This document shows positions 21,335 through 62,505 of a DNA stretch of 64,000 nt, in pieces; position 1 is the stretch's first letter, and each line of letters opens with the position of its first letter. The notes under the pieces were generated by a model. That model saw nothing but the letters and a program-made list of their open reading frames with translations. It had not been told where the DNA came from and did not search any database. The position numbers were made by a program, and so were the translations under genes. Origin of the DNA: Microbacterium murale (GTDB lineage: Bacteria; Actinomycetota; Actinomycetes; Actinomycetales; Microbacteriaceae); assembly GCF_014635185.1 (NCBI RefSeq), contig NZ_BMCM01000001.1, positions 1-64,000 of the forward strand, given 5' to 3'.

Positions 21335-21362
21335 GCGGGGATGCCGCGAAGACATCGCTCGT

Positions 21363-21399
21363 TGCGTGAGACACCAGCTGCGATATGTGGTCTCACGCA
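21363..21399. repeat. 37-bp palindromic element, copy 1
   Basis: The left arm is TGCGTGAGACACC (21363-21375), then an 11-nt spacer and the right arm GTGGTCTCACGCA (21387-21399); the outer 10 bp pair perfectly. It starts 28 bases after the PucR stop. It is the only unpaired copy of the seven in the window and may end transcription here. Confidence 0.75.
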
Positions 21400-21433
21400 G
21401 TACGAGGTGTGGACCGCTCCGTGCCCGGCCAGA

Positions 21434-36367: not shown

Positions 36368-37030
36368 TCAGCCGAGCAGCTTCTCCATCTCGGTGATCTC
36401 GCCGGCCTGCAGGTCGAGTCGCTTGCCGTTGACCTCGACGGTCGGAGTGCCCGCGATGTCGTGGGCCTTGGTCTGAGAGTCGACGAAGTCCATGTACGTG
36501 CCGTCTGCGATGCAGTCTGCCGCGGCGCCTGCGCCGGCCTGCTCCGCAAGAGTGGCCAGGTCCTCGTCCGAGATGCCGGCCGAGTTCTCTTCGGGCTGGT
36601 TGGCGAACAGTGCGTTGAAGAAGTCCAAAGCCGCATCGGGCGCCTCGGCCGCGACGCAGTACATTGCACTGCCCGCACGGGTGGAGAACTCGGTGTTCTG
36701 AGAGGCGCGATTCAGGATCGACACCGGGTGGATGTTCAGCGTGATGTCGCCGTTCGCCGCGGCGGTCTGCAGCTGCTCGCCATAGGATTTTTCGAAGTCG
36801 CCGCAGATCGGGCACATGAAGTCGACGTAGGTGTCGACGGTGTCTTCACCGTCGCCGAACACGATCGCGCCGGTCTCATCGTTGATGATCGCACTCTGCG
36901 GCGCGGTGCCGGGGTCATTGGCCTGGTTGTTGAGGAAGACCACGAGCCCGCCGAGCGCCACAAGAACGACGACGACCGCGATCGAGATGCCGATCGCGAA
37001 CCAATTGGTGTTGCTCTTTGCTGCTGCCAT
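36368..37030 (-). CDS. membrane-anchored DsbA/thioredoxin-like disulfide oxidoreductase
   Basis: The 220-residue protein has an N-terminal anchor helix (about residues 10-33) and then a DsbA-type fold outside the membrane. The redox motif CPIC is at residues 73-76 and the cis-proline is in AGTPTVEV near 200. It probably oxidises or isomerises cysteines of exported proteins. AGGAGAACG precedes the ATG at 37030. It is placed between infA and map, an unusual position within the ribosomal cluster. Confidence 0.88.
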   Translation of the reverse strand: MAAAKSNTNWFAIGISIAVVVVLVALGGLVVFLNNQANDPGTAPQSAIINDETGAIVFGDGEDTVDTYVDFMCPICGDFEKSYGEQLQTAAANGDITLNIHPVSILNRASQNTEFSTRAGSAMYCVAAEAPDAALDFFNALFANQPEENSAGISDEDLATLAEQAGAGAAADCIADGTYMDFVDSQTKAHDIAGTPTVEVNGKRLDLQAGEITEMEKLLG

Positions 37031-37198
37031 GGCTGTTCGTTCTCCTGGTGCTGGACGCCTCGGGGGCGCGGAAAATGCTGTGGGGGACGCTTCTATCGTC
37101 CCTGCAAAGTCTATGCACCCGTTGTGAGCGCCCCTCGCCCCCGAGGCCACGTCTCCGCCATGCCCGCGCACGCCGACCCCGGGCGTGACATCACCCGC

Positions 37199-37235
37199 TG
37201 CGTGAGACACCACGTCCGAGTCGGTGTCTCACGCA
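37199..37235. repeat. 37-bp palindromic element, copy 2
   Basis: The arms TGCGTGAGACACC (37199-37211) and GGTGTCTCACGCA (37223-37235) are perfect 13-bp inverted repeats with an 11-nt spacer, the best-formed copy. The next copy begins exactly 81 bp later. The 405-bp gap 37031-37435 between dsbA and the AbiEi-like gene holds these two elements and no gene. Confidence 0.85.
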
Positions 37236-37279
37236 CAAGCCGTTGCCTCACGGGTTCGTCGGTCGGTGACATCAGTTCC

Positions 37280-37316
37280 CGCGCGAGACACCATGGCAGG
37301 CGCGGTGTCTCACGCA
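37280..37316. repeat. 37-bp palindromic element, copy 3
   Basis: The arms are CGCGCGAGACACC (37280-37292) and GGTGTCTCACGCA (37304-37316), with two mismatches and an 11-nt spacer. Copies 2 and 3 are each followed within about 10 bases by GTTGCCTCA, so the repeated unit may extend beyond the palindrome. Confidence 0.8.
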
Positions 37317-37435
37317 GAAACTGTTGCCTCAGTTCCACCGTCACTCGCGCTGCACATGTCCTGCCGTGTCGTGGTTATCCACCGCACGGGCCTTTCACGC
37401 ACCGATGCCATCTCCGCTGCGACCAGAATGCACGG

Positions 37436-38464
37436 ATGCCGCACCTGCTCTCAGATCGGGCTGTCACCTCATCGCCCGTCTCACTCATCACGACATCCGA
37501 AGCGCGAATGCTCGGCGTGCCCCTCGTCCCGAGCACGATGCGCCGCATCCGCCGAGGCATCTATGTGCGGCGCGCGGAGTTCGATCACCTTCCGCCGTGG
37601 ACCAAGTACGCCGTCCGCGTGCACGCGTTCGCTCGGCTGCACCCGGACGCGATCCTCTGCCTGGAGTCAGCCGCCGTCCCCCACGGCCTCCCTGGCTTCG
37701 GCGAGACGGCTGACATCCACGTGTTCGATCCTGAGCGGCTGCGCTCGCGACGCTTCGGCGATGTTTTCGTCCACGCCAGTCACGAGCCACGCGAGGTGCT
37801 GCGGATCGACGGAGTGCTGGTGACCGGCATCCGCGAGACCGTGATCGACCTCAGTCGTGTGCTGCCTCCGGCTCGAGCACTCGCTGTCGCGGACAGCGCG
37901 ATCTCCCCTGCGCAGGGTGGCCTGCTGTCATTGGACGAACTGCGCACGAACGCTGAGACGCAGACGAATCGCCGCGGGCGCAATCGCTCCCGTTGGGTCT
38001 GGGACCGTGCAGAGGGCCAGTCCGAGTCACCCGGTGAGAGCATCAGCCGCGCCGTCATCGCATGGTGCGGATTCGAGGCGCCCGAACTGCAGCATGTGTT
38101 CCGATATGAAGGATGCGAAGACCGCGTCGACTTCTACTTTCGGGGTAACCGCGCCATCGGTGAATCCGACGGGTGGGGCAAGTACGCGCTGGAGGACCCT
38201 GCTGAAGGCGCACGGATTCTCCGGGAGGAGAAACTACGAGAAGAACGGCTTCGCCGCAATCAGCATCCGTTCGCGCGATGGGATCTCGCCGGTGCGCAGA
38301 AGGTGAATCCGTTGGTCAGAGCGTTGGAGTCCGCGGGCGTACAGCGCGTCCGTGCCGCCCAGCCCGAGATGCTGGCGACACTGAGGGATCACACCCGCGA
38401 GAAGCCGCGGGCGCAGCGGATGAACGCTGCGCCGTCTCGATCGCAGACAACACGCTCCGCGTGA
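37436..38464 (+). CDS. AbiEi-antitoxin-like protein with nuclease-like C-terminal half
   Basis: The 342-residue protein resembles the many actinobacterial proteins labelled type IV antitoxin AbiEi domain proteins. The N-terminal half has a winged-helix-like start (RMLGVPLVPSTMRRIRRGIY, near 26) and LESAAVPHGLPGFG near 80. The C-terminal half has FRYEGCEDRVDFYFRGNRAI and EKLREERLRRNQHPFARWD, reminiscent of DUF559/Vsr-like endonuclease folds. No AbiEii-type toxin is adjacent. It is antiparallel to the ribosomal genes around it and bracketed by paired 37-bp palindromes; its stop codon lies inside copy 4. Function is unproven. Confidence 0.75.
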   Translation: MPHLLSDRAVTSSPVSLITTSEARMLGVPLVPSTMRRIRRGIYVRRAEFDHLPPWTKYAVRVHAFARLHPDAILCLESAAVPHGLPGFGETADIHVFDPERLRSRRFGDVFVHASHEPREVLRIDGVLVTGIRETVIDLSRVLPPARALAVADSAISPAQGGLLSLDELRTNAETQTNRRGRNRSRWVWDRAEGQSESPGESISRAVIAWCGFEAPELQHVFRYEGCEDRVDFYFRGNRAIGESDGWGKYALEDPAEGARILREEKLREERLRRNQHPFARWDLAGAQKVNPLVRALESAGVQRVRAAQPEMLATLRDHTREKPRAQRMNAAPSRSQTTRSA

Positions 38465-38494
38465 GACACCACGCCCGCAGTGGGGTCTCACGCA
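38458..38494. repeat. 37-bp palindromic element, copy 4
   Basis: The arms are CGCGTGAGACACC (38458-38470) and GGGGTCTCACGCA (38482-38494). The TGA of the AbiEi-like gene (38462-38464) is inside the left arm. Copy 5 begins exactly 81 bp later. Confidence 0.85.
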
Positions 38495-38538
38495 GCAAAC
38501 GATGTGCGTCTCTCTGGCGCCGGCGCGACACCACGATC

Positions 38539-38575
38539 CGCTTGAGACACCATGCCCGCAGTGGGGTCTCACGCA
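38539..38575. repeat. 37-bp palindromic element, copy 5
   Basis: The arms are CGCTTGAGACACC (38539-38551) and GGGGTCTCACGCA (38563-38575). The spacer differs from copy 4 at one base, and the following GCAA is shared, so copies 4 and 5 look like a recent duplication. Confidence 0.85.
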
Positions 38576-38607
38576 GCAACCCATGTCTCACCCGGGTAGT
38601 GGCACCA

Positions 38608-38631
38608 GCCCGCGAGGCGCGCGAGGCGGGC
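38608..38631 (-). terminator. hairpin after map
   Basis: GCCCGC (38608-38613) pairs with GCGGGC (38626-38631) around a 12-nt loop, 8 bases past the map stop. It is a weak stem in a very GC-rich stretch and may end the secY-adk-map transcript. Confidence 0.4.
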
Positions 38632-38639
38632 GCCCGGGG

Positions 38640-39488
38640 CTAGGCCAGGGGCGTGGGAGCCACGCCGAAGGGGGCGAGGCCGGCGGCGCCGCCGTCGGGG
38701 GCCGTCAGGACCCAGATGCCGTCCGCGTGACGGGCCACGCTGTGCTCCCAGTGCGAACCGTCCGTGCCGTCGACCGTGGAGACGGTCCAGTCGTCGTCCT
38801 CGATGTACGTCTCTTCGCCACCGGCGGTGACCATTGGCTCGATCGCCAGCACCAGACCGGGCTTGACGTCAGGGCCGGGGTCGGGCGTGCGGTAGTTGAA
38901 CACGCTCGGCGCCTCGTGCATCTTGCGGCCGATGCCGTGGCCGACGTATTCGCGGAGGATGCCGTAGGTCTCCCCCGACACCTCCGAGACGCCCTGCGCC
39001 TCGATGTACTCCTGGATGGCCGCGCCGATCTCGCCGATGTTCCCGGCGGATGCCATCGCGGCGATGCCCGCCCACATCGAGCCCTCTGTCACACGCGACA
39101 GTTCCTCGCGCGTCGAGACCAGAGCAGAGCGTGTCGGATCCGGAACCACCACAGTGATGGCGCTGTCGCCGTTCCAGCCCTGGAACTGCGCCCCGCAGTC
39201 GACGGAGACGATGTCGCCGGGCTGCAGCACCCGCTCGCCGGGGATACCGTGCACCACCTCGTGGTTCACGGAGACGCAGATCGTGTGGTGATAGCCGCGC
39301 ACGAGCTGGAAGTTCGACTCCGCACCGCGCGCGCGGATCGTGCGGTTCGCGATCGTGTCGAGCTCGAGGGTCGTGACACCGGCGCGGATCAGCGGCCGCA
39401 CGGCATCCAATGCCGCGGCCGTGATGAGCCCCGGCTCGACCATCGCCTGCAGCTGGGCAGGCGTCTTGTAGATGGAGCGGCGGAACAT
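38640..39488 (-). CDS. map: methionine aminopeptidase, type I
   Basis: The 282-residue enzyme has the five metal ligands of MetAP-I in context: VSVDCGAQFQGWNGDSA (two Asp), GHGIGRKMHEAP (His), LAIEPMVTAG (Glu) and SHWEHSVA (Glu). It removes the initiator methionine co-translationally. It follows adk by 14 bases. infA, normally next, is displaced by the AbiEi-like and dsbA genes. Confidence 0.96.
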   Translation of the reverse strand: MFRRSIYKTPAQLQAMVEPGLITAAALDAVRPLIRAGVTTLELDTIANRTIRARGAESNFQLVRGYHHTICVSVNHEVVHGIPGERVLQPGDIVSVDCGAQFQGWNGDSAITVVVPDPTRSALVSTREELSRVTEGSMWAGIAAMASAGNIGEIGAAIQEYIEAQGVSEVSGETYGILREYVGHGIGRKMHEAPSVFNYRTPDPGPDVKPGLVLAIEPMVTAGGEETYIEDDDWTVSTVDGTDGSHWEHSVARHADGIWVLTAPDGGAAGLAPFGVAPTPLA

Positions 39489-61563: not shown

Positions 61564-61652
61564 CTGAGGAGGAATGCTTCGGCCAAGCCACACGTCCTGC
61601 CTCACAGCGAATCCACGGGATGCCGACGCGCGATGGCGGACACATCAACTGT

Positions 61653-61689
61653 TGCTTGAGACACCATGTCGGGCACGGGGTCTCATGCG
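61653..61689. repeat. 37-bp palindromic element, copy 6
   Basis: The arms are TGCTTGAGACACC (61653-61665) and GGGGTCTCATGCG (61677-61689) with an 11-nt spacer. It forms a pair with copy 7, 71 bp further on. Confidence 0.8.
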
Positions 61690-61723
61690 GCAGGGTGGCA
61701 CCCTCGGCGCGCACATCGACGGC

Positions 61724-61760
61724 TACATGAGACACCATGCATGCGATGGGGTTTCACGCA
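61724..61760. repeat. 37-bp palindromic element, copy 7
   Basis: The arms are TACATGAGACACC (61724-61736) and GGGGTTTCACGCA (61748-61760), the most diverged copy. It begins 16 bases past the stop of the next gene (minus strand), where a terminator would be expected. Confidence 0.75.
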
Positions 61761-61776
61761 GCGGAGGCGCGCAACA

Positions 61777-62505
61777 TTAGGGGGATTCGGGGTCGAAGGG
61801 CGAGTCCAAAGAGGACGTCAGCTCTTCCAGAAGCGCCTCGATCTGCGGCTCGACGTGCTGCGAGATCGCGGCCTGCACATTGAGGCGGTGGCGCAGCAGG
61901 ATGCCGCAGATCTCACGGCCGACCATGTTCGCGTACTCGTCCGCGAGGGCGACCTCCTGGCGGAGCGCGGCCTTGGCCTCTTCGGTCAGCGGAGGCAGCG
62001 GCGGCAGTTCGATGCTCTCCGCATCTGCGAGTCCGGCGATCGTGAACAGGAATGGCGCGCCGGGCACCGGATCGGGGTCCAGTGGCAGACCCTCGAACTC
62101 CGGCTCGAGGTCTTCGGATGGGCGATAGCTGCGCGCGCGATTGCGGGCCGCCTGCTGATCGAGCTCCTGCTGCAGCATCGGAAGATTGCGCGCGGTGTAC
62201 TCGGCGACGGCGTGATCCACGATCGTCTTGATGCGAGTCGAGAGCCCGTGCTGCACGCCGTGCGGCACGTTCGCGCCGATGCCAGCGGCGGAGAGGATGG
62301 GCGAGCCGAGACAACGCCGGCATGGGGCGATGCGTCCGCGATGCGTCGCAGGCTCCCAACGCGGCACCCAACGCAGCCAGGCCTCGACGGCCTGGTCGAC
62401 CTGCGTCTCTAGCGACCGCTGCACGTTTTCCAGAATAGGGTCATCCGCACGATTATCGCGTCTGTCGATCAGTTCTCGTCGAGATCGTCGCGTTCCCACG
62501 GCCAC
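61777..62505 (-). CDS. conserved-looking protein of unknown function
   Basis: The protein is up to 242 residues, soluble and rich in Glu and Leu, with a CRRC motif near residue 62 and a C-terminal helical region. I recognise no family. The start is uncertain: the GTG at 62505 overlaps the upstream gene by 37 bases, and a GTG at residue 28 (VQRSLETQVD) is an alternative. It is read in the same direction as the two membrane genes upstream and ends at paired palindromes. Confidence 0.6.
   Translation of the reverse strand: MAVGTRRSRRELIDRRDNRADDPILENVQRSLETQVDQAVEAWLRWVPRWEPATHRGRIAPCRRCLGSPILSAAGIGANVPHGVQHGLSTRIKTIVDHAVAEYTARNLPMLQQELDQQAARNRARSYRPSEDLEPEFEGLPLDPDPVPGAPFLFTIAGLADAESIELPPLPPLTEEAKAALRQEVALADEYANMVGREICGILLRHRLNVQAAISQHVEPQIEALLEELTSSLDSPFDPESP

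Follow-up and report, generated by a model that had tools for sequence, protein, structure and literature searches.

In Microbacterium murale, a gene for an AbiEi-like protein with a predicted Vsr-like nuclease half is bracketed by pairs of palindromic repeats, and further copies of the repeat are dispersed over the genome. We consider it fairly probable (roughly 60%) that gene and repeats form a self-bracketed element, in which the palindromes are the binding sites of the encoded protein and the dispersed ones are non-autonomous copies or targets. This reading is built on features visible in sequence comparison, namely the geometry of the repeats, the bracketing, the matched half-sites on both sides of the gene and their co-divergence with it, the dispersed copies, empty sites, changed locations and orientations of the gene and the presence or absence of single sites. 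From them we infer binding, cutting and movement by the element.

The window, i.e. the whole stretch of 64,000 nucleotides that was analysed, contains seven copies, the number given in the original prediction, at 21363, 37199, 37280, 38458, 38539, 61653 and 61724. The four copies next to the gene have 13-nt arms and 11-nt spacers, and the start-to-start distance is 81 bp in both pairs (37199/37280 and 38458/38539). The arms pair at 13/13 positions in the copy at 37199 and at 11/13 in those at 37280 and 38458; the copy at 38539 attains 11/13 after a shift of one base inward. These palindromes are real and go beyond chance. There is one exact dyad GTGAGACACC-N6..16-GGTGTCTCAC in the window and none in 100 shuffles of the window, and genome-wide GTGAGACACC/GGTGTCTCAC is found at 3 places, the reversed control pattern at 0.

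The unit length of 37 bp proposed at the outset holds for the core but not for the whole, to which outer half-sites belong as well. On alignment of the copies they are conserved before the 37-bp core (GAGACATCA) and after it (TGATGTCTC), some being degenerate in the window copies. The full unit of about 75 bp consists of four half-sites of about 14 bp each in the orientation >><<, spaced by 19/23/19 bp, with the half-site consensus TGAGACAYCA among the copies of this genome. The period of 81 bp arises because two units stand back to back on the half-site lattice (23+19+20+19 = 81). As a fixed distance it applies to both gene-flanking pairs but not to the whole genome, where pairs at 71 and 82 bp also occur.

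All units are recorded without strand. On the upstream flank, unit 1 spans 37180..37254 (core 37199-37235; E 2.3e-15; template score 56/84) and unit 2 spans 37261..37335 (core 37280-37316; E 9.4e-15; 48/84). Unit 3 (38439..38513, core 38458-38494; E 1.2e-14; 41/84) overlaps the stop codon of the gene and has a strong inner dyad and a degenerate right outer half-site, and unit 4 (38520..38594, core 38539-38575; E 2.3e-14; 53/84) lies on the downstream flank. The dispersed copies of the window are a single one at 21344..21418 (core 21363-21399; E 1.7e-12; 42/84) and a pair 71 bp apart at 61634..61708 (E 4.4e-12; 35/84) and 61705..61779 (E 1.9e-10; 27/84), both members with degenerate outer sites. 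The 19/23/19 template reaches at least 48/84 in the window only at 37180, 37261 and 38520; the remaining window copies have a good inner dyad and degenerate outer sites. A search of positions 37000-38700 against Rfam returned only three miRNA families far under their cut-offs, which we regard as chance hairpins.

The bracketed gene (37436..38464, plus strand) encodes 342 aa with an AbiEi-like half (residues ~14-193) and a half resembling Vsr and EDxHD homing endonucleases (~196-304). By predicted fold, the product is an AbiEi-like two-domain protein fused to a Vsr/EDxHD-like nuclease. The list of predicted folds contains the AbiEi antitoxin fold and a Vsr-like nuclease, besides nucleotidyltransferase toxins, and the AbiEi/Vsr assignment is a reading of that list, so that families outside it could also fit. 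The original prediction of an AbiEi-like gene between two palindrome pairs is borne out in its bracketing, and the predicted fold supports the AbiEi half. AbiEi antitoxin profiles were matched by 35/40 family members. Pfam gave one match below its cut-off for the window protein (E 0.048) and NCBIfam none; among the 40 members the sole sensible Pfam match was AbiEi_4, in 2 of them, and a search of the PDB by sequence returned nothing credible. The residues E201, D232, E243, D245 and K249 are invariant in 76/76 aligned sequences and are putatively catalytic. No AbiEii partner gene adjoins the gene in the window; its neighbours encode DsbA-like (Thioredoxin_4/DSBA) and Peptidase_M24 proteins.

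Throughout the 3.9-Mb genome (G000), a covariance model located the repeat at 17 places with E <= 6.5e-8, taking the better strand of each, and the next new place followed only at E = 1.87; the model was built from nine copies, all among the 17, and 150 of 1102 first-look candidates were scored. Eight of these places are paired (81, 81, 71 and 82 bp apart) and nine are single. A chance arrangement, for which the original prediction had expected neither preferred pairing nor a link to variable loci, is therefore not what the genome presents, as 8/17 places belong to pairs and variable loci are among the positions of the copies. The symmetrised consensus of the 17 copies ends in TGAGACATCA. When 83 copies from different genomes were pooled, the inner arms were more symmetric than permuted pairs and the outer flanking positions hardly so, a test that does not separate hairpin from dyad. 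Two more homologs are encoded in the genome at C2:232053-232919 and C3:439431-440312, neither near an R1-type palindrome; each may have its own type of palindrome. The homolog at C2:232053 carries outer half-sites CGAATCRACA on both sides, with template scores of 44 and 41, under the threshold of 47.

Two-sided bracketing recurs within the genus. It was scored in 80 named loci from a second collection, nearly all from Microbacterium and with contigs partly shared with the first set, against the 99% shuffle level of the four-half-site template (47/84). Among named loci with enough flank, the template was above this threshold upstream in 60/73, downstream in 50/75 and on both flanks in 45/68, as compared with 0/448 real control windows. 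Of the 30 closest genus loci (L079-L108), 29 have both flanks, and 23 of these exceeded 47/84 on both sides. Scanning the spacing in 147 flanks gave a sharp optimum at 19 bp with a mean best score of 53.7, all other periods remaining at 38 to 44. The four-site arrays mostly lie ~130-230 bp before the start codon, a position consistent with promoter binding of the AbiEi type. The number of nine-mers shared between flanks proved a weak measure in Microbacterium, only 1/68 loci lying above the 99% level of cross pairs. Some relatives have longer arms that grow in 19-bp steps: L065 has five half-sites opposite three (L065:2823-3055, where as many as five point the same way ahead of the dyad), and L066 has three opposite three. 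Many GGTCTCGCGCA-type repeats lie beside the gene in L098, and in L170, L186 and L148 the outer and inner half-sites differ within the array, with the same outer/inner difference on both gene sides.

The position of the gene is variable. The original prediction had proposed comparing map-dsbA loci with and without the insertion, and 19 of 20 such loci, chosen from a longer list, were empty: the map stop is followed by dsbA within ~200 bases, and no array was seen. In G018 (L255), the map-dsbA interval holds a different AbiEi/REase-like gene that has, by eye, AGAAGTGGCCACTTCT-type palindromes on both sides and a weak Pfam match to MTES_1575 (5.8e-4, under its cut-off). Within the 80 named loci, the gene lies between dsbA and map in 14 cases in one orientation and in 6 in the other, and between infA and dsbA in 6; another 5 could be resolved in part, and in the remaining 49 the map, dsbA and infA markers are all missing from the <=2.5 kb read. 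In G000 and in G096, the closest relative sampled, the gene lies between map and dsbA in opposite orientation, and the motifs differ. These two genomes are 90% identical in dsbA and in a glycosyltransferase, and 57% in the AbiEi-nuclease protein.

Dispersed units are likewise present or absent at orthologous sites. One of them (G000:C1:535229-535295, corresponding to L025:4229-4295) sits in frame within the inter-domain linker of the glycosyltransferase. Of the 30 best-matching genomes, drawn from 103 with a match among 149 searched, G000, G124 and G147 have a linker stretch of 60-68 residues and the remaining 27 one of 44-50. G096 lacks 60 bp at this site and may have kept a remnant of the unit. 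At C1:526448 the unit is present in G000 and G147 and absent from G096 and G078. Site 21348 is occupied in G000 and empty in G099 and G005, G147 has no unit there, and in G078 a unit with another motif stands next to an additional gene. At site 61638 there is none in G075. The spots orthologous to C1:545600 and 61638 are occupied in G096 as well, but by units of the G096 motif GAGACCGA(G/C), a single one at 61638, and C1:545600 in G078 shows a third motif that is unlike that of its resident gene and resembles that of G099. No target-site duplication was found, and the alignments at orthologous sites show no clean junction. The initial suggestion of a mobilisable or regulated unit is thus supported: the bracketing is found again around homologs that occupy different loci, point either way and have different motifs, most of the chosen map-dsbA loci are empty, and sites present in some genomes are absent from others; movement is what we infer.

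The motif differences at fixed spots could be explained by point-by-point selection on many sites, but we favour hot-spot re-insertion or nuclease-driven gene conversion. Since G000 and G096 each carry units of their own motif at two orthologous dispersed sites, we tentatively entertain, as a possibility with the odds against it, a new class of genome-wide homing, in which, once the resident AbiEi-nuclease gene had been exchanged for one of another specificity, the new nuclease would drive the conversion of palindromes at old positions to the new motif.

How the repeats might be recognised is suggested by two described cases. AbiEi-family proteins are known as autorepressors, whose binding sites are two or four inverted repeats ahead of the gene; AbiEi binds two inverted repeats cooperatively and bends the DNA, and Rv2827c binds four inverted repeats of 23 bp each in its own promoter (PMC7319586). 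The homing endonuclease I-Bth0305I is described as forming a dimer on its target, which spans nearly 60 bp (PMC3943268). By analogy with the repeat binding of Rv2827c and the ~60-bp target of I-Bth0305I, four half-sites would be plausible targets of an AbiEi-type domain combined with a nuclease. The same background lends itself to a chromosomal regulator, in which the palindromes would be operators that autoregulate and insulate the gene, the dispersed ones would control genes or organise the nucleoid, and the nuclease half would be structural. Such a role would agree with the autorepression described for the family from repeats upstream of its own gene (PMC7319586) and with the two orthologous sites that retain units with altered half-sites, as expected if sites stay functional. 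However, the fused nuclease and the two-sided arrays go beyond autorepression, the putative catalytic residues are invariant, gene position and orientation vary, and whole cassettes are absent. Moreover, according to gene calls made with a simple script, four of the nine dispersed loci outside the window lie between convergent 3′ ends, one lies within an ORF and only some are near promoters. We therefore regard a purely regulatory function as unlikely, though it is the strongest competitor of the self-bracketed element.

Homologs of the protein extend beyond the genus, occurring in 117/199 genomes and 61/85 genera of the family (E <= 1e-30) and in 195/394 genomes and 85/137 sampled genera of the class (1e-20), a small part of the latter having been read for flanks. 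Of 27 family loci read, one comes from the same genus and 26 from other genera; on average their flanks have 22.1 nine-mers in common versus 5.5 between loci, and 7/27 lie above the 99% level of cross pairs. The 19/23/19 template exceeds 47 on both sides in only 2/28 family loci (L221 and L235). Outside the family, 8/13 loci read share more flank nine-mers than 95% of cross pairs, several of them in the form of near-perfect terminal inverted repeats whose ends are of the TGATCA type. Homologs from another family of the class (L352, L357, L358 and L359) are flanked by such repeats, the inner parts of which are diverse. In viral contigs, no relative is encoded in any of 89 candidate stretches. 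This lack of a confirmed viral relative, together with the missing AbiEii neighbour in the window, counts against a defence or toxin-antitoxin-like selfish gene, in which the AbiEi half would restrain the nuclease, the palindromes would titrate it or mark self DNA, and cassette loss or invading DNA would free it. The AbiEi antitoxin profiles in most members, the predicted antitoxin fold and a nuclease in place of the partner toxin would suit such a gene, but two-sided bracketing and dispersed copies would be left unexplained, which makes it improbable in our view.

Half-site sequences differ between genomes, with TGAGACACCA in G000, TGAGAAACCA in G071, GAGACGGCA in G138, GAGACCGAG in G096, GAGAAACGT in G124, CGAGAATTGC in G092 and GCATAAACGC in G007, although the two sides of one gene agree. 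Upstream and downstream motifs match at 10.2/14 positions within a locus versus 6.7 between loci (45 loci; 0/10,000 permutations), and the own flank partner is the best match in 26/45 loci. Similarity of the sites correlates with that of the proteins (Mantel r 0.59 for 44 loci; 0/2000). Across loci, the sites of proteins that share 55-70% identity have a similarity of 8.4, and above 70% it reaches 10.3, a rise as expected from relatedness.

The dispersed copies, too, follow the resident gene. The covariance model found matches in 50/149 genus genomes; no more than 34 candidates were scored in each, and the counts take in hits on either strand as well as gene-flank copies. Matches occur in 33/39 genomes with a close homolog versus 17/110 others (p ~1e-14), and at least five in 29/39 versus 6/110, where close homolog means E <= 2.7e-78, a cut-off chosen after the lists were seen. 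A dyad of another type, ATAAACGC-N-GCGTTTAT, is present in 6/149 genomes, 16 times in G007, and of the permitted spacers of 7-11 bases only that of 9 appears at the places listed. In all six genomes the resident gene has ATAAAC-type half-sites on its flanks, and several other genomes with ATAAAC in the outer half-sites only (e.g. G053, G020 and G024) have no ATAAACGC dyad. The corresponding GAGACGGC dyad of the G138 type was uninformative, with 1-3 matches in 14/149 genomes versus 6 genomes with the reversed control.

In 19 genomes, the best R1-type dispersed copy resembles the sites of its own resident more than those of others (0/10,000 permutations); the own resident came first in 5 genomes and ranked sixth or better out of 22 in 16. 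For this comparison 22 genomes were tried, three of which were dropped with resident flanks under the threshold; R1 itself favours copies similar to those of G000, and of the two homologs in G068 the one with flanks looking alike was chosen. Dispersed copies mostly resemble the resident motif; those in G075, G138 and G109 disagree with it. In G112 the homolog is split into two frames (C1:678161-679074, L303), and the genome has 12 repeat matches. In G033 there are 33 repeat matches, and all the homologs found are distant. In G007, G093 and G072 (L298-L302), pairs of units that resemble short non-autonomous elements lie 146-307 bp apart with no obvious gene between them; two such pairs, in G093 and G072, are at seemingly the same locus.

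The many copies in G033 without a close gene are what one would expect if the palindromes were another mobile family, moved by an unrelated transposase, and the AbiEi-nuclease gene a passenger. Because flank half-sites co-vary with this gene, any other gene would need to co-vary too, and a Y1 HUH transposase domain (PF01797) gave no Pfam match in the bracketed protein or the 40 members scanned; a passenger role thus appears decidedly improbable. Ordinary bidirectional terminators or chance palindromes are scarcely credible, for although convergent genes flank several copies, which would form hairpins, the repeat is a sequence-specific family at 17 places with fixed spacing and a genus-wide association with one gene family, and no obvious T-run stands beside the copies read.

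For the self-bracketed element, the following course can be envisaged. The AbiEi halves would bind the half-sites as a multimer, and the nuclease half would nick or cut at the arrays. Repair might then move, copy or rewrite palindromes through excision and insertion or through ectopic gene conversion, while the whole cassette would move rarely. Recombination between the flanking palindromes could leave single palindromes behind, like solo LTRs.

With homologs in 85/137 sampled genera of the class, many of the genes that go by the name of orphan AbiEi proteins in databases could belong to units of this kind. As one genus holds many specificities of gene and site, the co-change of DNA-binding specificity and dispersed sites is directly testable.

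The element shares single features with several known systems. With AbiE type IV toxin-antitoxin systems (AbiEi, Rv2827c) it has in common an AbiEi-like predicted fold and inverted-repeat arrays upstream of the gene, but no AbiEii gene adjoins, a nuclease domain is fused and the repeats lie on both sides and dispersed. The predicted fold of the catalytic domain is that of EDxHD/Vsr-like nucleases. In contrast to the homing endonuclease I-Bth0305I, Vsr and DUF559-type proteins, this domain is combined with an AbiEi-like half instead of phage-type DNA-binding modules, and the gene is located outside an intron or intein and bracketed by its own palindromes. Like insertion sequences and MITEs, the system comprises a gene-bearing unit and short paired units without an obvious gene, and it shows presence or absence at orthologous sites, but it has no known transposase domain, and the alignments, in which no clean junction is seen, yielded no target duplication. 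In the open-access papers searched, which leave most subscription papers and preprints out of scope, we found no apparent description of AbiEi or DUF559-type genes bracketed by palindromes.

The closest parallel is REP/REPIN and RAYT (TnpA-REP), the standard example of a dedicated enzyme coupled to short palindromes. Two inverted REPs are described as flanking RAYT genes in every case (PMC2817692), and REPs occur within genes too (PMC3733652). In both systems, the gene of a DNA-processing enzyme has palindromes on both sides (here in 45/68 loci), and many copies are dispersed in the same genome, some of them inside genes; here their sequence follows the resident gene, with the exceptions of G075, G138 and G109. 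However, RAYT is a tyrosine (HUH) transposase, whereas the present protein combines AbiEi with a predicted Vsr-like nuclease. The REP palindrome has 20-40 bp and a GT(A/G)G head, as opposed to four half-sites at 19/23/19 bp and a consensus without such a head, as read off the symmetrised consensus of the 17 own copies. The element is therefore not a member of the REP/RAYT group but follows the same logic with an unrelated protein and different repeat features. The presence of such genes in many related bacteria, bracketed by palindromes that change in sequence along with the gene, points to a selfish or mobile DNA system that has not been described so far.
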